From a virus: a stretch of 64,000 bases of DNA. The translations under genes and the position numbers were made by a program. A model generated the notes under the pieces. It worked only from the letters and a program-made list of their open reading frames with translations, ran no database searches and had not been told where the DNA came from. The stretch covers positions 1-64,000 of IMG/VR virus record IMGVR_UViG_3300009008_000005; one strand, given 5' to 3'. Within the stretch, counting starts at the first letter, position 1, and each line of letters starts with the position of its first letter. Positions 41,453 through 51,697 of this stretch are shown piece after piece.

Positions 41453-41653
41453 TCAATCCTCTTCCAGGAAGACGGACAGGTCGGAGTCGATGTGATTCTC
41501 CATGTTAGGGAGCAGCGTATTCATCGAACCTACTGCGCCCTTGAGCTTCAACTCCTTCAAGAAATCCCGCTCTCTGGTGGCCTTCTCTTCCTCTACATCC
41601 AACCACTCGTCCAGGATGTCTCGTAGCTCCTCAAGCTTTTCCTTAGTTGCCAC
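41453..41653 (-). CDS. Small helical protein, 66 aa
   Basis: GTG start at 41653, inside the end of the sigma factor gene (11-bp overlap). Two charged helices (K-E-K-L-E-E-L-R-D-I-L-D-E-W and E-E-E-K-A-T-R-E-R-D-F-L-K-E-L) suggest a coiled coil. Being coupled to a sigma gene, it could be a partner of the sigma factor, though it equally fits a small structural protein. Confidence 0.65.
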   Translation of the reverse strand: MATKEKLEELRDILDEWLDVEEEKATRERDFLKELKLKGAVGSMNTLLPNMENHIDSDLSVFLEED

Positions 41654-42491
41654 TAGCTATACCTGCCCGCTTCAAATGCTCGCCTAGCTGTGAGGCTACG
41701 TTCTTCCTGATACGGTAGATCTTATGGGTAGTCATGCCCGTCTTCTTTGAGATCACCTTCACGTCCGTAGTCCTGGGTCTCCCTAGGCCTGTTAGGTAAC
41801 GGTATACCTCCTGCTCGTCCTCCTTCAGCTCGTACAGAAACAGCTTCATGATCTCCATCTCCTTAGGAGGAGAGACCGCTGTAGGATCAGATTCAAACTG
41901 AGATGTGGTGAGGTCCTTCCGAAGCTCTGTGCGAAGGAGTGTTACCTGCTTCACTGGCCACTTCAAACCATGAGCCAGTTCCCCATCCGTGGGTAGCCGA
42001 CCCAGCTTATCTGTGAGGCGCTGCCTCTTCATCTCGTAGGTGCGGATCTTGTCGATCCTCTCCTCCGGGATGCGGGCTGCATTCTGGTAGGTCTTGATGT
42101 ACCTTCCTGTCTTCCGCATATACCACGTAGCGAAGGTGGACAGACTCGCACCCTTTGCTGGATCGTAACGCTTCAAGCCCTCGATCAGATGCTTGGTGAA
42201 CTCTGTCCGTATCGCCTCTGGAGGAAGCTGTACGTTCCCGATGTACTCGTTGGCTGCTCTGTTGATAAGTGGTTGGAAGGACTCGACCAGGGGTCGCATG
42301 TCTTCAGGGCGCTCTCCGCTAGTCTTCCACTTGAGCCAGAGAGCCATCTCCCTCTGGCGGCTCTTCTGTAGCGGGGCCTTTTCGGGCTTCTTCTCCTCTA
42401 CATCTTCGGTACGAGTATGGCCCTTGACCAGGACCTTCTTCCCGTCCTCCGTACGATAGTACGGCTTTACTGGAACCTTACGAGTAGCCAT
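41643..42491 (-). CDS. Phage sigma factor of the sigma70 group
   Basis: A 282-aa transcription initiation factor. Region 2-like: L-V-E-S-F-Q-P-L-I-N-R-A-A-N-E-Y then F-T-K-H-L-I-E-G-L-K-R-Y-D-P-A-K-G-A-S-L-S-T-F-A-T-W-Y-M-R, with the classical F-x-T-x-A-x-W-x-x-R signature. Region 3-like: I-P-E-E-R-I-D-K-I, G-R-L-P-T-D-G-E-L-A. Region 4-like: L-K-E-D-E-Q-E-V-Y-R-Y-L-T-G followed by an HTH (T-D-V-K-V-I-S-K-K-T-G-M-T-T-H-K-I). It would direct host RNA polymerase to phage promoters, perhaps late ones. The leading 60 residues are basic and lack a sigma counterpart. Confidence 0.88.
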   Translation of the reverse strand: MATRKVPVKPYYRTEDGKKVLVKGHTRTEDVEEKKPEKAPLQKSRQREMALWLKWKTSGERPEDMRPLVESFQPLINRAANEYIGNVQLPPEAIRTEFTKHLIEGLKRYDPAKGASLSTFATWYMRKTGRYIKTYQNAARIPEERIDKIRTYEMKRQRLTDKLGRLPTDGELAHGLKWPVKQVTLLRTELRKDLTTSQFESDPTAVSPPKEMEIMKLFLYELKEDEQEVYRYLTGLGRPRTTDVKVISKKTGMTTHKIYRIRKNVASQLGEHLKRAGIASGN

Positions 42492-42493
42492 AT

Positions 42494-43057
42494 CTAGGCC
42501 CCCGGAATCTTCAGCTTGCGAAGACCTGAGTATATGCCATAGCGGAAGCCTGCTGTCTTCTCCATGTTCTCGAAGATCCCGTGCTTGACGGGGTTCTTGA
42601 ACCCCATCTTGTTTCCGAGCTTCCTGCTGCCTTTATTCGTGTGGACGTACTGCCACTTCCAGCGCTTCACTTCAGGGTGCTTCTTCATAAGGAAGGAAAC
42701 GGCTTTCTCACCAAGACCCTGCCTACGGTATTTCGGCGAAATACCTACGCCAACGAAAGCGGATTTGCTGGAATAAACCTTCTGCTTCTTGTAAGGCCTC
42801 GTAAGCTCTACGAAGCCCATCCACTTCCCTCCATCATATAACCCGTAACCCGTCCGGGCACCTTTAGGTGGGGCTGGGATCGTACCATGACCTGGGAAGT
42901 TTCCTGACTTTACCTTTAGGGCGGAAGCTTTCTTCCTGTCATAGGGGCCTATGCGAATCACGTAAAGTCCTCCGTTCTCAGGCTCTATTATGCAAAACAG
43001 TTCAGTGGGTTGTCCACAAAACTCCCAGACTTCCCGGTAGAAGAACTTCGGACCCAT
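42494..43057 (-). CDS. GNAT N-acetyltransferase
   Basis: About 187 aa from ATG 43057. The frame stays open to 43390, but that extension is antisense to a rightward gene (43077) and a terminator, so the shorter start is preferred. Motif A is V-G-V-G-I-S-P-K-Y-R-R-Q-G-L-G-E-K-A, the acetyl-CoA binding signature. C-terminal G-N-K-M-G-F and a nearby H-T-N-K-G-S-R-K fit the fold. The substrate is unknown; it could modify a host or phage protein. A perfect palindrome copy encodes the G-I-S-P-K-Y part of motif A. It is the first gene of the leftward block and precedes the sigma gene. Confidence 0.82.
   Translation of the reverse strand: MGPKFFYREVWEFCGQPTELFCIIEPENGGLYVIRIGPYDRKKASALKVKSGNFPGHGTIPAPPKGARTGYGLYDGGKWMGFVELTRPYKKQKVYSSKSAFVGVGISPKYRRQGLGEKAVSFLMKKHPEVKRWKWQYVHTNKGSRKLGNKMGFKNPVKHGIFENMEKTAGFRYGIYSGLRKLKIPGA
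42727..42745 (-). repeat. Palindrome copy 5, inside the acetyltransferase motif A
   Basis: Perfect GGTATTTC-GGC-GAAATACC. It encodes G-I-S-P-K-Y, in a different frame from copies 3 and 4. Confidence 0.75.
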
Positions 43058-43076: not shown

Positions 43077-43265
43077 ATGGAAGATTTCAAGATGCCGAAG
43101 AATGGCTTTGTGCTTGTAGTAACGCCGGAAGGTGTACGCACCAGCTGCCGTGGGCACCTGGGGCAGGCATGCAAAAGGAAGCTCCTAGGGAAGCATATTC
43201 CCAACTCCAGGGCCTTCTCCCATGAGGTGTCGAAGCGAGTCGACAACAGGAGCTTCAGGAAGTAG
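43077..43265 (+). CDS. Small basic protein, 62 aa (cassette 1)
   Basis: SD AAGGAGG lies seven bases before the ATG. The protein is basic (R-G-H-L-G-Q-A-C-K-R-K-L-L-G-K-H), with two cysteines. A terminator follows at 43285. It lies between a leftward operon and two other rightward cassettes. Not recognised. Confidence 0.75.
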   Translation: MEDFKMPKNGFVLVVTPEGVRTSCRGHLGQACKRKLLGKHIPNSRAFSHEVSKRVDNRSFRK

Positions 43266-43284
43266 CCCAGAGGACCTAATGGAG

Positions 43285-43309
43285 AACCAGGCTGCGGCCT
43301 GGTTTTCTT
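43285..43309 (+). terminator. Terminator of cassette 1
   Basis: AACCAGGC-TGCG-GCCTGGTT followed by TTCTT. Same TGCG loop as the terminators at 14369 and 43809. Confidence 0.85.
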
Positions 43310-43321
43310 ACCCCCTGAAAA

Positions 43322-43365
43322 GTGCAAAAAACGGCCCACTACCTGAGATAAGAATAGTGAACCCC
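43322..43365 (+). promoter_or_regulatory. Promoter/leader of cassette 2, duplicated at 43848
   Basis: GTGCAAAAA (43322-43330), then a 21-base block (43345-43365) containing TAAGAAT as a likely -10, then an SD region with GTAC repeats flanking GGAGG. The same order and sequence occur before cassette 3. The -35 is not classical, so recognition by the phage sigma factor is possible. Confidence 0.65.
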
Positions 43366-43388
43366 AACCACGTACTAGGAGGTACATC

Positions 43389-43784
43389 ATGGGTGACCAG
43401 ACGAAAAAGGCGAAGATCTATGAGGCGAAGCGCTCCTGCCGGATCGACATCCAGCTGCAGAAGGGCATCATGAAGCTGGCCCGCAAGGCGCTCACCGTGG
43501 ACTTCAAGATCTGGCGGGCGTCTCGCAAGGCGCAGCGCAAGGGCGAGATCTTCGAGGCGAAGGGCAAGACCGCCGAGGCGGCGGCTCTGGCGACGGCGAC
43601 CGAGAAGGCCACCGAGGAGATCAAGGCCAAGGTCGACGAGAAGTTCGCTGCGAAGCGGGCGAAGCTCGACGAGAAGGTGGCGAAGGCCCGGGGGAAGATG
43701 GACGAGAAGATCGCCAAGATCATGACCGTCAAGGAGGAGACTCCGGCCCCGACCCTCGTCCCGGACCCCGAGCCCGCCAAGTAG
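43389..43784 (+). CDS. Lys/Ala-rich basic helical protein, 131 aa (cassette 2)
   Basis: ATG follows AGGAGG by seven bases. The protein is helical, rich in Ala, Lys and Glu (K-A-K-V-D-E-K-F-A-A-K-R-A-K-L-D-E-K), with a Pro-rich end (P-A-P-T-L-V-P-D-P-E-P-A-K), resembling histone-H1-like or coiled-coil nucleoid proteins. Codons end overwhelmingly in G or C, unlike the neighbouring genes. This may reflect high expression or a different origin. It has its own promoter and terminator. A DNA-associated, highly made protein is a reasonable guess. Confidence 0.8.
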   Translation: MGDQTKKAKIYEAKRSCRIDIQLQKGIMKLARKALTVDFKIWRASRKAQRKGEIFEAKGKTAEAAALATATEKATEEIKAKVDEKFAAKRAKLDEKVAKARGKMDEKIAKIMTVKEETPAPTLVPDPEPAK

Positions 43785-43808
43785 AGCGGTTCGACGAGAG
43801 ACACGATT

Positions 43809-43846
43809 GGGACAGGGGGCTGCGGCCCCCGTCCCCGTGTCTTCTT
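43809..43846 (+). terminator. Terminator of cassette 2
   Basis: GGGAC-A-GGGGGC, TGCG loop, GCCCCC-GTCCC, then a T/C-rich tail (GTGTCTTCTT). One bulged A. Confidence 0.8.
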
Positions 43847-43847
43847 A

Positions 43848-43890
43848 GTGCAAAAACTAGCCAAAAAAAGAGATAAGAATAGTGAACCCC
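43848..43890 (+). promoter_or_regulatory. Promoter/leader of cassette 3, duplicate of 43322-43365
   Basis: GTGCAAAAA at 43848-43856 and a 21-base block at 43870-43890 identical to cassette 2, with a spacer one base shorter. Downstream GTACC-TGGA-GGTAC could fold over part of the SD. Confidence 0.65.
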
Positions 43891-43911
43891 TAGCGTACCT
43901 GGAGGTACATC

Positions 43912-44388
43912 ATGAAAGAGTCAACGAAAAATTTCTGGAATGGCGTTGGTAGCGTCCTGGGCGGAGCCCTCAGCATGGCAGCTAAGGTCAACCGTGAGGT
44001 CGGTCGGCAGGAAGGGATGCGGACCGTCCGCAACACCCACACCACCGTCCACCACACCACTCCCGTGATCGAGCAGCGCACCGTCATCGTGGGTGGTGGC
44101 CTGGGCTCTGACCTGGCCATGATCATGCAGGCCCGCCAGGACAACATGCGGTCCATCGGCCGGATGTGGGAGGACTCCTGGAGCCACGACTCCGCCCGCC
44201 ACCTGATGCGGGATTCGGCCACCGACCTCAAGGCCCTCCTGCAGAGCCGCCCCGAGTGCAACGCTCTTCTGGCCACCATCAAGGTGCAGGAGATGGATGC
44301 GCTGATCGAGGGTTACGAATCGGCGGGTGGTGACTGGAGCCACGAGAAGCAGTCGCTGCGTCGGTTGTACGAGCGCTGCCACCGGTAG
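43912..44388 (+). CDS. Unknown protein, 158 aa (cassette 3)
   Basis: SD GGAGG upstream. The N-terminus has an amphipathic or membrane-seeking helix (F-W-N-G-V-G-S-V-L-G-G-A-L-S-M-A-A-K-V). Next comes a Thr/His/Val region (T-H-T-T-V-H-H-T-T-P-V). The C-terminal 90 residues are helical with D-L-K-A-L-L-Q-S-R-P-E-C-N-A-L-L. Codon use is G/C-ending, like cassette 2. Not recognised. The matched control regions suggest co-expression with cassette 2 at a high level. Confidence 0.8.
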   Translation: MKESTKNFWNGVGSVLGGALSMAAKVNREVGRQEGMRTVRNTHTTVHHTTPVIEQRTVIVGGGLGSDLAMIMQARQDNMRSIGRMWEDSWSHDSARHLMRDSATDLKALLQSRPECNALLATIKVQEMDALIEGYESAGGDWSHEKQSLRRLYERCHR

Positions 44389-44401
44389 AGAGGGACCCGG
44401 G

Positions 44402-44441
44402 TGGGGAACGGGGGTGGGCGAAAGCCCTTCCCCCTTCCCTT
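44402..44441. terminator. Strong GNRA-loop terminator between convergent genes
   Basis: GGGGAACGGGGGTGGGC, GAAA loop, then GCCCTTCCCCCTTCCC and TTT. One mismatch and one bulge. It ends cassette 3 and lies right at the end of the leftward 44445 gene, so it can serve both directions. Confidence 0.8.
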
Positions 44442-44444
44442 TAC

Positions 44445-46913
44445 CTAGATGGCATCCCCAAGGGCTTTGTCCACACCTGTAGTCTTGGCCATAGAACGTA
44501 TGGCACGGACTCTCTTGAATCTCTTTATCCGATCCATGAGGGTCTTCTTGGAGAGGAGGGGCTCCTTCCGTTTCTTTAGAGCTGAGTGCACGAAGGGGAT
44601 AGCCGCTGCGCCTGCGGCTGCGGGGAGCGTGTACTTACGGAGCTTCCGTAGGCCCTTGAGCTTCTTGGCTGCACCTCCAGCCGAAGCGAAGTCGACGACT
44701 TTACCCTTGGACTTTGACTTCAAGGATCTCTTGGCCAGGGCCTCTGCACCGAACTGTGCTCCTGCACCGGCCCCACCGATAGCTGCTCCCGTAGCGAGAT
44801 TTTTCTTGAGTGTTTTCTTCTGCTCGGGAGAGGCCTTACGGACCTTCTTCAGGACCTTCTTACCGCCCTTCACTCCCAGGTAACCACCGTACGAACCTGC
44901 CAGGGCCCCGCCCATGGCTCCAAGGGTGGCTCCGCCCACGGTAGGAATCTTTCCTTTCTTGGCCCTGTTCTCCATTACCTTCAAGGCGGTCAATGCACCT
45001 GCAAGGGAACCACCAGTGGCTCCGAACTGCTCACCAAGAGTCGGGTCTGGGGGGCTGGCGGCTGTCTTCTCTAGTGGGAGAAGGCGTGTGGGTCGCCTAC
45101 GAGACGGGTCAAAGTTGGAGAGGGCCTTATTCGACCAACTTTTGAAAGATGACCGGGGGACCAAAATTTCGTTTACCAAACCATCCCCACCACCGAGAAT
45201 CTTGTTCCTTGGAACATTGAATGAGAGAGTACCGCCCCCGGGACGTTGGCCGTATGGAGCGCTGTGGTGGAAAGCATACCCTTTCTTTGGGTTCGCCTCA
45301 AAGGCGTATAGACCGCCCTGGGCAGCACGAGTTTGTCCAGGAATTACATGCTGGGAAGTAAACCTGGTGCCCGGTGTAGATGTCCCAGCTAAACGCAGGT
45401 CTGAGGCTTCGCCACCAGAGACAACACGGACGGGCTCCTTAGAACGTGAGTACGAGCGAGCACTCGGACTGTAAGGACTACCAACCCCGGTGCCCTCTAA
45501 CTCCGGTACCTTCCCTGTTCTTTTCCACGTCTTGTAGGATTCAAGTCTTTGCTTCAACGGTACATAGGGATCGGATTTTGCGTTGACTCTTCTGGTGCGC
45601 CGAACCAGTTTTTTCAGCTTAGGTAAATCCCTCTCCGCTATTACCTTCTTAGCTTGGTGTTGCGTCATAGGGGACGGGGCAGACTTACGTAGCGTGGAGA
45701 CCAAACTGTCAAATAAGTTGAACGCAGCCCTGGGGGCCTTTGCTAGGGAAGCAATCTTGACCTTCTTCCCACGCTTCCGTCCATCATGGACCCAGCGCCA
45801 GAACTGGCCAATGTTCATCACAGAGTGGTCTTGGTAAAATCCTCGGCTGTTGTACTGCTTTCGGTAGGCTTTGAGCGCAGTCTGGACATCATTGAAGCCC
45901 AGCATGACCTTGTCTTCGTCATACTTTTTGGTCTTGGGGTCTTGCTGATGTACAACCACCACAAGGGGCGAATCTGCATTCTTCCCGACGTAGACGTCGA
46001 GCTTGTCCCCATCCTTGCCTTCCGTACCCCGGATCTCACCATAGTGGTGATGCATGAAGGTCTTCCAAGGTTTTCCATCAGGATCCTTTCCGGAGCGTGA
46101 GGAACCACGCTTGTTCTCAACGTCGATCTTCAGTCCTTGGAAATCTACGTAGCCCTGGAAGGGCCACTTCTTCCTCTTGGCTTTTGGCGGAGCAAGAGGC
46201 ACACGTGAGTTACCGGTGGGGACCTTCACAGCAGAGGACTCCTTCTTGAGGAGATTAGCCTTCAGGTCGCTCACTCCCTTCCCTACGAGTGCGGACCCCC
46301 CAGCAAGACCAGCTATGCCTGCACCGAACCTACCCGGCTTCCTCTTGATGTACTTCGGTAGGCCCTTGGCTAGTTCCTTCACGAGACCAAGGCGCTTACG
46401 ATGCTTCGACTTATGGATGTACTTAGGGTCGATAGTTTCCGTCGTAGTAGCTGCGATGTTCTTCCGGACCGACTTGGGAATATCATTAGGAGGTCTCATG
46501 TCCTGATCAAGCTTGAACTTTTCCCACCGGGAGTCCGGTATCGTAGCCGTTATGACTCTCTTATTTGCGGTGGGGTCAAAAGCCTTGAGCAAAGGGAGTT
46601 TGTCCGTAGATTTCTCCTTTTTGAGCTTTTCCGTCAGTCCAGCGAACATCCTAGCAAGGGTTTTGCTCTTGGTTACGTGGACTTTCCCCTTGCTCCTATC
46701 CTTGAAGTACTCGTCTATTGTGGCCGCTCCTGTACCGCCCTTGGCAGGGCTTAGACCCTCAGACAGGATAGAAGGAATGTTCTTACCATCACCCGTACCA
46801 TGATACACCTTGTGCGCCCCTACCGTACGTCGTAAGGACGACGGTAGGAGAGCCGCTCCTGTACCTAAGGCAACAGCGCTGCCTGGAAGGCCTAAACGAT
46901 CCCTCTCGGCCAT
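44445..46913 (-). CDS. Polyvalent protein: InPase-like and ART-like domains, 822 aa
   Basis: Multi-domain protein of the kind injected with phage DNA (polyvalent proteins). Residues about 36-90 (V-Y-H-G-T-G-D ... I-L-S-E-G-L-S-P) resemble an ADP-ribosyltransferase/KptA-like N-terminus. Residues about 240-385 match the inorganic-pyrophosphatase-like domain of polyvalent proteins (H-H-H-Y-G-E-I-R-G-T-E-G-K-D-G-D-K-L-D-V-Y-V-G, then F-N-D-V-Q-T-A-L-K-A-Y). Residues about 498-585 could be a second ART-like unit ending in N-E-I-L-V-P. The last 200 residues carry glycine-rich membrane segments. ART assignments are tentative. Confidence 0.75.
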   Translation of the reverse strand: MAERDRLGLPGSAVALGTGAALLPSSLRRTVGAHKVYHGTGDGKNIPSILSEGLSPAKGGTGAATIDEYFKDRSKGKVHVTKSKTLARMFAGLTEKLKKEKSTDKLPLLKAFDPTANKRVITATIPDSRWEKFKLDQDMRPPNDIPKSVRKNIAATTTETIDPKYIHKSKHRKRLGLVKELAKGLPKYIKRKPGRFGAGIAGLAGGSALVGKGVSDLKANLLKKESSAVKVPTGNSRVPLAPPKAKRKKWPFQGYVDFQGLKIDVENKRGSSRSGKDPDGKPWKTFMHHHYGEIRGTEGKDGDKLDVYVGKNADSPLVVVVHQQDPKTKKYDEDKVMLGFNDVQTALKAYRKQYNSRGFYQDHSVMNIGQFWRWVHDGRKRGKKVKIASLAKAPRAAFNLFDSLVSTLRKSAPSPMTQHQAKKVIAERDLPKLKKLVRRTRRVNAKSDPYVPLKQRLESYKTWKRTGKVPELEGTGVGSPYSPSARSYSRSKEPVRVVSGGEASDLRLAGTSTPGTRFTSQHVIPGQTRAAQGGLYAFEANPKKGYAFHHSAPYGQRPGGGTLSFNVPRNKILGGGDGLVNEILVPRSSFKSWSNKALSNFDPSRRRPTRLLPLEKTAASPPDPTLGEQFGATGGSLAGALTALKVMENRAKKGKIPTVGGATLGAMGGALAGSYGGYLGVKGGKKVLKKVRKASPEQKKTLKKNLATGAAIGGAGAGAQFGAEALAKRSLKSKSKGKVVDFASAGGAAKKLKGLRKLRKYTLPAAAGAAAIPFVHSALKKRKEPLLSKKTLMDRIKRFKRVRAIRSMAKTTGVDKALGDAI

Positions 46914-47360: not shown

Positions 47361-48782
47361 TCACTTGATGTTCTTCTCCACATGCCAATCCGAGAAGCTC
47401 GCCTTCGACAAAGCCCCGGACTCGTACTGCTTCTCTGCAGTCACTCGGGCCACTAGACCCACATACCGCTTCTTATTCTGCCATAGATCTTCACGCAATG
47501 CATCATTCAGCCCTGTGCCTACCTTCCCCACAATAGGTCCATGACGGGTCAGGGAATAAGAGAATCCTCCTGCTGCCTTGCCTGCATATTTACCACCACC
47601 TGGGAAGATCTCCCGTACATAGACATCGTGCTCATACCTGAGCTTCGACTTCACAGGACCCTTATCTGTCCAGAGGACAACACCTTCTCTCGTAAGGGGG
47701 TGCTTCCCTGAACCGATGGAATCTAATAGCTTCGACTTGTCCTTCGGTGAGGTAGCTACAGGGGCAACACCTAGGACAGGGTATTTCGCTGAAATAGTAT
47801 GTAGAAGCTGCAGCCTTTCCTTATACGGTAACTTCGTAACATCGTGGCCATTGATCTTCACTGCGTCGAAAAGGAAGATCTTCGTCTTGGCCTTAGCCTC
47901 TGCTTGGATGTGGAGGCTGTTGATGACGGTAGCGTTCAACATACCTCCCACCTTCTCAGGAGGCAGAGGGACTCCGTCTGGACCTATGGCCAGAACCTCC
48001 CCACGGAGGATAGTTGGACCCTTCCCACCCTTGGCCTTCGTAGCGTATAAGTCCTTGATCTTGTGGGTATATTCTAAAAGGTCACCGGTCTTGGACTCCC
48101 TGGTGGAGAAGGCCCGTATCCGCTTCCCAGGTCGCATTAGGACAAGGGCATGCGCCCCATCGAGTTTGGCTCCGACGATGACGTCATCCCTGTTGACGAT
48201 CTCGTCACGCTGAGGTGTCTTCCACCCGATCTCCTTGTACTTCGGCCTGCCCCTAGGGGTTTCCTTCTTGGGGGCCGTCATGTTCACAAGGATCCAATTC
48301 TTCTTCCCTATATGGAGCAGTGCGAAGTCTTCCGTGCTCTTCCCACGGGTCACGGAGAACACGACCTTCTTCTCATCGGACGAATGTATGATGGCGTGGG
48401 AGTACTGCTTCAGGAATACCTTGCCTTGGCCGTACCCTGTCTCAAGCCTCCCCTCGAAGGGCATGTAGTCGTTCTTGTGCGTGAACGTCTGCATGACCAA
48501 TGTGCTCTTCCCTGGGGGAGGGAGAGTGAAGTCCTTCCCCTTCAGGGAGTGCCAGCTATGCGCCTTACCTGAAGGGTCACCCAAACGAAGGTCGAAGTGC
48601 TTCCCGGACTTCTTGGCATGGTGCTCCTGGAGCCCGAAAAGCCACACTTCTCCCCTCGCTGTCGGGATGGGGTGTGTGGTCTTGCTGTAGGGCCCTTCCT
48701 TTAGGTCACGGGTATGCGGCCGGACGTAGACGGTCTTGCCTTTGAGCTTCCGGCTATGCCCATCTACTTGTGTGCGGCCCAT
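47361..48782 (-). CDS. ATP-dependent DNA ligase fused to a LigD-type 3'-phosphoesterase
   Basis: About 473 aa from ATG 48782 (GGGGG upstream; TTG 48818 also open). Residues about 45-150 form a LigD phosphoesterase domain: F-G-L-Q-E-H-H-A-K, K-H-F-D-L-R-L-G, H-S-W-H-S-L-K-G, F-E-G-R-L, with the metal-binding His, Asp and Arg present. The ligase follows: motif I G-A-K-L-D-G-A-H-A (Lys near 207), L-R-G-E-V-L-A, E-G-V-V-L-W (near 365) and K-S-K-L-R-Y. The usual Arg after K-x-D-G-x is His. It would clean 3' ends and seal nicks. It is encoded outside the replication operon, between tail and polyvalent genes. Confidence 0.88.
   Translation of the reverse strand: MGRTQVDGHSRKLKGKTVYVRPHTRDLKEGPYSKTTHPIPTARGEVWLFGLQEHHAKKSGKHFDLRLGDPSGKAHSWHSLKGKDFTLPPPGKSTLVMQTFTHKNDYMPFEGRLETGYGQGKVFLKQYSHAIIHSSDEKKVVFSVTRGKSTEDFALLHIGKKNWILVNMTAPKKETPRGRPKYKEIGWKTPQRDEIVNRDDVIVGAKLDGAHALVLMRPGKRIRAFSTRESKTGDLLEYTHKIKDLYATKAKGGKGPTILRGEVLAIGPDGVPLPPEKVGGMLNATVINSLHIQAEAKAKTKIFLFDAVKINGHDVTKLPYKERLQLLHTISAKYPVLGVAPVATSPKDKSKLLDSIGSGKHPLTREGVVLWTDKGPVKSKLRYEHDVYVREIFPGGGKYAGKAAGGFSYSLTRHGPIVGKVGTGLNDALREDLWQNKKRYVGLVARVTAEKQYESGALSKASFSDWHVEKNIK
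47781..47797 (-). repeat. Palindrome copy 6, inside the ligase gene
   Basis: Core TATTTC-GCT-GAAATA (47782-47796). On the gene strand it encodes T-I-S-A-K-Y, the same frame as copy 5. The GGGTATTTC arm faces against transcription here. Confidence 0.7.
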
Positions 48783-51014: not shown

Positions 51015-51697
51015 TGGAGACGGTGTACAAAGCAGTCCTAGAGGACTCATCCGGCGGCGTATGGTCGATGATGAGTGGAGTGTACAAGTACTACAAGAAC
51101 CGCTGGATGATAGCCCCCATCGGTGGTTTCCTGTGCTACTCTTCTCTGGAAGCTGCACAGATGTTCTGGCTCCCCAACAGCACAATCTGGGAGTGTAGGG
51201 CAGAGGAAGAGCTAGATCTTCCTGTACGCATCACCAACTTCGGGGTCGTATCGGAACCGGATGTGGTCGAGGCAGCATGGGACCCGATGCTACATGACGA
51301 GCTGTCCAATGATCTCCTATACAAGAACCCCAGGATCTGGGAAGAAGGGACAGTAGCCTACAAGAGGCTGATCCTGACCAAAAAGGTGTTCCCACCCGAG
51401 GGTGACCACCCAGTCATTGCAGACTTGTACGAAAGGTTCGACAAGAATCCGGAACTTAGTACAACTGACATGACGATGTCTCTGACCTTCACGCTCCTGG
51501 ATGAGGTGGTGAACAACACGGTCGCCTCCTATCTCGCAGAGAGTAGGGATGTCCTAGGACGAACAGTGTCCGACCTCACGAAAAGGCTCATAGCTGGACT
51601 GACCCAGTGGCGGAATGTTCGACGAGAGATTCTTCACATGGAGAACTCAACAGGAGACGACAGCAACGTCGTCCAACTGATCACTCCCGACTCGTAG
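51014..51697 (+). CDS. Unknown protein, 227 aa
   Basis: Last of the rightward group. N-terminal half with many Trp and Tyr (V-W-S-M-M-S-G-V-Y-K-Y-Y-K-N-R-W). The C-terminal half is helical (S-D-L-T-K-R-L-I-A-G-L-T-Q-W-R-N-V-R-R-E). It overlaps the convergent hub-like gene by 17 bp with no terminator between them. Function unknown. Confidence 0.74.
   Translation: METVYKAVLEDSSGGVWSMMSGVYKYYKNRWMIAPIGGFLCYSSLEAAQMFWLPNSTIWECRAEEELDLPVRITNFGVVSEPDVVEAAWDPMLHDELSNDLLYKNPRIWEEGTVAYKRLILTKKVFPPEGDHPVIADLYERFDKNPELSTTDMTMSLTFTLLDEVVNNTVASYLAESRDVLGRTVSDLTKRLIAGLTQWRNVRREILHMENSTGDDSNVVQLITPDS

Follow-up and report, generated by a model that had tools for sequence, protein, structure and literature searches.

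A pair of tandem cassettes at 43322–44448 of a 64,000-nucleotide (nt) stretch, referred to here as the window, was analyzed together with the 180,825-b virus record that includes it (IMG/VR record IMGVR_UViG_3300009008_000005, designated G000; the window starts at position 1 of the record). Each cassette carries a single rightward gene, for proteins of 131 and 158 amino acids (aa), behind a leader with the features of a promoter marked by the core ATAAG. From the sequence data we consider it likely that these are early cassettes read by a phage-encoded RNA polymerase (RNAP) and sigma factor, that they belong to a regulon of ~20–30 units, and that they were inserted against a late structural operon. 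The assignment of the leader as a promoter is well supported by sequence comparison; we infer its activity in vivo, its reading by this RNAP–sigma pair, early expression and a takeover action of the two proteins.

The cassette leaders and their counterparts across the record

The leaders of the 131-aa gene (43389–43784, + strand) and the 158-aa gene (43912–44388, + strand) share an identical 21-nt block, GAGATAAGAATAGTGAACCCC, at 43345–43365 and 43870–43890, which consists of an extended −10-like core, GAGATAAG, and a conserved downstream part, AATAGTGAACCCC. Both also contain AGTGCAAAAA (at 43321 and 43847), with the −35-like element GTGCAAAAA at 43322–43330 and 43848–43856, and a 14-nt block covering the ribosome-binding site and start region, GGAGGTACATCATG (at 43378 and 43901). 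The ribosome-binding sites are recognizable in the sequence as AGGAGG (43377–43382) and TGGAGG (43900–43905). Two matches to the 19-nt core of the motif occur in the window, against 0.03 expected by chance, and the two proteins give no alignment with each other, even at E ≤ 100. A previous sequence-only reading of this DNA, which had described two single genes with a near-identical leader and unrelated products, is borne out on these points. Each leader would constitute a complete sigma-type promoter comprising the −35-like element GTGCAAAAA, a spacer, the extended −10 element GNNATAAG and a conserved start region of the form (A/T)A-N-(A/T)GTG(A/T)A.

A hairpin resembling a terminator follows the 131-aa gene and adjoins the second promoter (43798–43850; −34.7 kcal/mol, z −5.5). 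A third small gene (62 aa, 43077–43265, + strand), already noticed from the sequence, belongs to the same rightward insert and lacks the ATAAG promoter core; its own terminator hairpin (43281–43313; −20.5 kcal/mol, z −5.1) adjoins the first promoter. The hairpin behind the 158-aa gene (44389–44448; −32.8 kcal/mol, z −1.8) stands out less from shuffled sequence and offers weaker evidence, and this terminator is the least certain of the three. The U-tracts of all three hairpins are imperfect and a consensus terminator scan listed none of them. The proposal that each gene has its own terminator stands for the 62-aa and 131-aa genes and is weak for the 158-aa gene. In the arrangement we propose, the 131-aa and 158-aa genes would be separately started and separately terminated members of ~20–30 early-type transcription units.

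The search for the leader elsewhere in the genome that the sequence-only reading had suggested returned a promoter class rather than a private pair. With up to three mismatches, the 19-nt core has 10 copies in the record, all on the + strand, and none in the reversed control. The form G-N-N-ATAAG(A/T)A occurs at 27–30 sites. A position-weight model gave 18 sites above 20 bits, every one on the + strand and intergenic, and 15 of these lie 32–44 nt upstream of a called start codon. Among the sites used for the motif the ATAAGAA columns do not vary, and AGTGAACCC shows strong conservation. At 27 intergenic sites no more than 70 nt from a start (24 on the + strand) the general core GNNATAAG is present; the structural genes of the record are on the − strand. 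Unbiased k-mer enrichment upstream of the genes likewise yielded ATAAGAA and GGTATAA. A −35-like (A/G)TGCAAAA or a close form precedes the core at the same offset in 7–8 copies; a sigma-70 consensus scan found no match at the cassette leaders.

The longest match of the leader of the 43912 gene is with that of the gene at 117694 (26 nt), and the leader of the 43389 gene shares 25 nt with each of those at 117694 and 104646, whereas the two cassette leaders share only 21 nt with each other. The copies closest to the window leaders, at 104604 and 117652, are 60–74 kb away. Since the leaders match these distant copies better than they match each other, they are members of a regulon, and a local tandem duplication was rejected. 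The earlier idea of a duplicated control region therefore survives as a repeat but not as a local event, and the suggestion that one regulator governs both genes holds in the wider sense that both belong to a genome-wide promoter class. Copies of ATAAG lie directly behind terminator T-runs at 93046, 68356 and 121120, which implies that transcription must restart there.

The candidate polymerase and the motif in related phages

The most likely reader of these promoters would be an RNAP and a sigma factor encoded by the phage itself. A 2078-aa fused beta–beta' RNAP with Rpb2 and Rpb1 Pfam domains is encoded at record positions 170409–176645 (L014:9409–15645). A 282-aa sigma-70-family factor, the candidate specificity subunit for the ATAAG promoters, lies 0.8 kb from the cassettes (41643–42491, − strand; PHROG 351, E 3.5e-15); its Pfam sigma regions 2 and 3 score slightly below the curated cut-offs, and it is the orthologue of gp10 of Salmonella phage Arash (31% identity). 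Arash and the Vibrio phages D69, D148 and D181 are the nearest isolates, with ~30–31% identity in RNAP and sigma. Relatives of the RNAP were found in 83 IMG/VR contigs and the sigma in 26 of 28 contigs searched, several of the 28 having been collected by the sigma search itself. All examined phages that carry the motif encode an RNAP resembling cellular beta/beta'. RNAP and sigma would be made late, packaged in the virion, injected and used on the ATAAG promoters of the next infection.

In unbiased k-mer counts, seven of the eight divergent phages examined, Arash and D69 among them, have the ATAAG core before genes. The leading upstream words are GGTATAAG in Arash and G029, GTTATAAG together with TAAAATA in D69, GGCATAAG in G001, where it follows T-runs, GAGATAAG in G002 and ATAAGTA in G022. 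GGTATAAG and GGCATAAG also lead, on either strand, in a pool of 67 non-redundant loci of RNAP phages (1.3 Mb), in which GG[TC]ATAAG has 44 intergenic copies where 2.2 are expected, and GG[TC]ATAAT one where 0.98 is. A −35-like element ~21 nt before the core is present at part of the sites and differs between phages (TGCAAAA in G000, GCAAAT in G022, TCAATA in D69, CCAATA in Arash). A scan of IMG/VR for ATAAGAANAGTGAACCC gave 35 matches, of which only L049, a genuine relative, is promoter-like; the remaining ones are apparently fortuitous.

The ATAAG core is one base removed from the host extended −10 element, by a change from T to G at −7, and the leaders could instead be extended −10 promoters read by the host RNAP and its main sigma factor. 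GG-N-ATAAG does resemble TGnTATAAT, the latter is itself enriched in the RNAP-phage loci (16 against 0.96), which indicates that host-type promoters occur there, and the host enzyme is at hand immediately after infection. T at −7 is, however, a key base for sigma-70. Both window sites have G there instead, as do 134 of the 174 upstream sites in eight RNAP phages, and the same change recurs in Salmonella, Vibrio and metagenomic phages, the last spanning 41–60% GC. No TTGACA-like −35 element accompanies the ATAAG promoters. Phage Vi01, whose T4-type gp33 gene serves late transcription by the host RNAP, has T in seven and G in none of eight sites at −7, and in 50 kb of its genome GGTATAAT leads and GG[TC]ATAAG is absent. 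We thus regard reading by the host enzyme as unlikely.

The strand on which the motif lies bears on timing. The ATAAG sites are opposite to the strand of the terminase, portal, capsid and tail genes at 18 of 18 positions in Arash and 18 of 19 in D69, and opposite to the structural strand at 17 of 17 in G029. In these three phages TAAAATA is enriched on the structural strand, and the Arash beta' gene, gp216, follows TAAAATA. The genes for RNAP and sigma accordingly lie among the late ones. TAAAATA(TA) is a second upstream motif in Arash, D69 and G029, which also carry a second sigma (gp196 in Arash and D69_0246 in D69) and may be one clade.

The ATAAG sites could also be middle promoters, real phage promoters whose reader is not the virion enzyme but newly made RNAP, or the host RNAP with a phage activator. 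Replication genes do follow some of the sites (RNase H/primase of Arash; 108715–109206), and RNAP and sigma could also be made in the cell. With their genes in late structural operons, and gp216 behind TAAAATA, a newly made supply would nevertheless come late. Moreover, mass spectrometry detected the RNAP subunits gp206 (beta, with the most spectra of any protein) and gp216 and the sigma gp10 in Arash virions (PMC10585845). A middle class is accordingly improbable in our judgement. By analogy with Arash, the two cassette genes are probably switched on early by an enzyme carried in the virion.

Several observations weigh against reading by a virion-borne RNAP–sigma pair. Only part of the copies have the −35-like element, and the resemblance of the motif to the sigma-70 extended −10 element means that the host RNAP could contribute. 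In G015 ATAAG is only weakly enriched and not among the top words, and G001, a 92-kb fragment that carries the motif, yielded no sigma homologue. The control set is small, comprising one 50-kb Vi01 stretch and 13 shorter loci. Finally, 116 proteins were detected in Arash virions, and the authors of that study caution that detection alone is no proof of functional packaging (PMC10585845). With so many proteins detected, presence in the virion was also set aside as a marker of late genes.

Probable insertion, codon use and products of the cassettes

The cassettes lie within a leftward structural block. To their left are genes for the sigma factor and a GNAT acetyltransferase (42494–42961), both leftward, and to their right a leftward gene at 44445–46913; the position between leftward blocks that the sequence-only reading had described is thus correct. 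In six relatives (Arash, D69, G022, G015, G029 and G002) the genes around sigma form one unbroken run on a single strand, and none of those near sigma lies on the other strand; homologues of the window genes at 51681 or 55126 are on one side and mostly those of 31669 and 26597 on the other. G000 interrupts this run with 43077–44388. These relatives are distant (28–36% sigma identity), and none shows the precise empty site. G001 has a + strand group that includes a gene with the same promoter (70159); it is flanked by two leftward genes, the homologues of which are directly adjacent in G000. Structural blocks of this lineage thus seem to take up promoter-gene-terminator units, and the cassettes would have entered the late structural operon opposite to its direction.

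As to neighboring genes, the product of 44445–46913 is a large protein with an inorganic-pyrophosphatase-like domain (PF18823), and 47361–48782, in the same structural block near the cassettes, encodes an ATP-dependent DNA ligase that also matches the LigD phosphoesterase weakly.

The fraction of G/C-ending codons (GC3) sets both genes apart from their surroundings, as had been noticed from the sequence. It is 0.944 in the 131-aa gene, the highest of 221 called genes, and 0.821 in the 158-aa gene (rank 18 of 221), compared with 0.58–0.66 in the flanking leftward genes and a genome mean of 0.658 (sd 0.095); the excess persists when the amino acids are allowed for (z = 6.9 and z = 4.6). The cassettes are exceptional against the genome mean, but high GC3 is general on the early strand: the + strand genes at 66–138 kb average 0.726, the structural genes 0.61 and the replication genes at 1–14 kb 0.66, and genes behind promoters that bear TGCAAAA average 0.83. 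The cassettes therefore share the codon pattern of the early class. The likely major capsid gene, whose product is surely abundant, reaches only 0.764. High expression was thus rejected as the sole cause of high GC3, and codon use does not by itself mark the two products as very highly expressed virion proteins. The pattern may reflect expression level or translation before the 37 tRNAs of the phage are made.

The sequence-only reading had also likened the cassettes to morons; in the classical sense these are foreign genes that bring along foreign promoters and terminators of their own and benefit a lysogen. Their anatomy agrees: they are single extra genes with their own promoter and terminator, on the opposite strand, for which no relatives were found, and they stand between genes that are adjacent in the distant relatives, within a run that is continuous in all six. 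The cassette promoter, however, is not of a foreign or lysogenic type but of the class that the phage itself uses throughout the record, the GC3 of the cassettes matches that of other genes of this class, and no tyrosine integrase (PF00589) was found in the 180,825-b record, serine recombinases being outside the search. Classical morons are thus a quite improbable explanation, and the insertion is better called moron-like in anatomy, with the phage's own early promoter. Most improbable of all is that the conserved block is an RNA leader acting on translation or stability, as its place 30–40 nt before the start codon and the conservation of the ribosome-binding region might suggest, since its most constant part, ATAAG, lies upstream of the variable part, several copies begin within a few bases after a terminator, and distant phages keep ATAAG but not TGAACCC.

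For the 131-aa protein, which is rich in Lys, Ala and Glu, no homologue was found in Pfam, phage records or IMG/VR and PHROGs gave nothing informative. Its two predicted long helices form a hairpin in the structural model (pLDDT, the predicted local distance difference test score, 82), which matched no viral fold better than E 0.2. The 158-aa protein had no homologue in Pfam, phage records, IMG/VR, the 28 relatives or GTDB contigs, PHROGs were again uninformative, and so was its structure prediction (pLDDT 48). The ATAAG promoters make both cassettes candidates for takeover factors, and a host-takeover role is a guess from the promoter class only.

Relation to known systems and other features of the record

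Taken together, the data make us lean toward the view that this widespread lineage brings into the cell a complete sigma-dependent RNAP of its own, composed of a beta/beta' core (a single chain here) and a sigma-70-family factor for which T at −7 has been traded for G. GNNATAAG would mark genes that are transcribed early and independently of the host, and genes would join the regulon as promoter-gene-terminator cassettes, as at 43322–44448. Such a system would combine two strategies that reviews keep apart, in which RNAP-encoding jumbo phages lack sigma and sigma-encoding ones use the host RNAP (PMC7598289, PMC7824862, PMC13282480).

The closest known parallel is found in jumbo phages of the phiKZ/AR9 type, whose virion-RNAP early promoters likewise consist of one conserved motif near −10 before presumed early operons genome-wide (PMC7598289). 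There, too, the phage RNAP is multisubunit; virion delivery in the present case is suggested by analogy with Arash only. The phiKZ/AR9-type enzymes are split into several polypeptides and have no recognizable sigma (PMC7598289, PMC7824862, PMC13282480), whereas G000 carries beta and beta' in one chain, encodes a sigma-70-family protein and has a sigma-type promoter with a −35-like part. The RNAP-encoding Caudovirales termed mReC (Weinheimer and Aylward 2020, PMC7481178) likewise have an RNAP resembling cellular beta and beta', with the NADFDG motif, and were found in IMG/VR; sigma and promoters do not come up in the main text of that paper. In keeping with the mReC definition, the G000 TerL matches PF03237 (25.7 bits; cut-off 22), although PF05876 scores higher. 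The likely capsid protein (149672–150802), homologous to that of Arash, matched nothing in Pfam at 0.01, PF07068 of mReC included. G000 also encodes a family A DNA polymerase.

Arash (PMC10585845) and the Vibrio phages D69, D148 and D181 share homologous RNAP, sigma, portal and terminase with G000, as well as an upstream motif, GGTATAAG or GTTATAAG. RNAP identity to the Vibrio phages is about 30% over 99%. The Arash RNAP is encoded in two genes and that of G000 in one, the second sigma and the structural-strand TAAAATA of Arash and D69 are both absent in G000, and neither phage has an insert at the place of the cassettes.

Sigma-70 extended −10 promoters have a similar TGnTATAA-like core and two-part layout; the ATAAG promoters differ in having G, not T, at −7, a GCAAAA- or TCAATA-like −35 and a conserved start region, AGTGAACCC. 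In T4 late promoters, the phage sigma gp55 reads a short A/T core, and a −35 element is slight or missing. In that system late genes have TATAAATA and are transcribed by the core RNAP of the host, whereas the ATAAG class lies on the non-structural strand and would use the phage's own RNAP.

No description of the ATAAG promoter was found in the open-access literature, subscription papers and preprints being outside reach. By analogy with the systems above, we rate the ATAAG class as a putative variant of the virion-RNAP early-promoter system that has not previously been described in the open literature. If true, the presence of an RNAP, a sigma and their own −10 element in one lineage would provide a natural system for sigma-dependent initiation evolved outside the host enzyme. 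It would also give the RNAP-encoding phages of an orphan group a concrete, testable promoter code. With the motif as a rule, early genes of the takeover type, which for the most part lack homologues, can be annotated in these phages at once.

Other features of the record concern genes away from the cassettes. No tRNAs or Rfam elements were found in the 64-kb window; ~36 tRNA genes that cover most amino acids are clustered on the − strand at record positions 72.4–78.2 kb (L009). A 39-nt identical stretch lies upstream of both of the neighboring − strand genes 163082–163438 and 163441–163908. At 127774–131522 (L012:5774–9522) a row of genes begins with one for a ThiS-like beta-grasp protein, with an ATAAG motif 83 nt upstream, and continues with genes for a 504-aa protein, a protein that by eye is JAB/JAMM-like (no Pfam hit) and a ThiF/E1-like protein; this row is a possible ubiquitin-like conjugation or sulfur-transfer cluster.

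The perfect palindrome TATTTC-NNN-GAAATA occurs in 24 copies, plus one with a mismatch, within and between genes over the 180-kb record (7924, 19245, 23832, 35979, 42729, 47782, 50701, 63687 ... 177908). Eight exact copies fall in the window; neither Markov controls nor seven relatives contained any. Copies at 66454, 82406, 113899 and 120052 overlap the −35 region of ATAAG promoters. The palindrome presumably resembles Noc/ParB binding sites, and a protein with a ParB helix-turn-helix domain is encoded at 134403–135350. In G022 (IMGVR_UViG_3300037483_001478) a dispersed AATGGCCATT-like palindrome is present in 16 copies.
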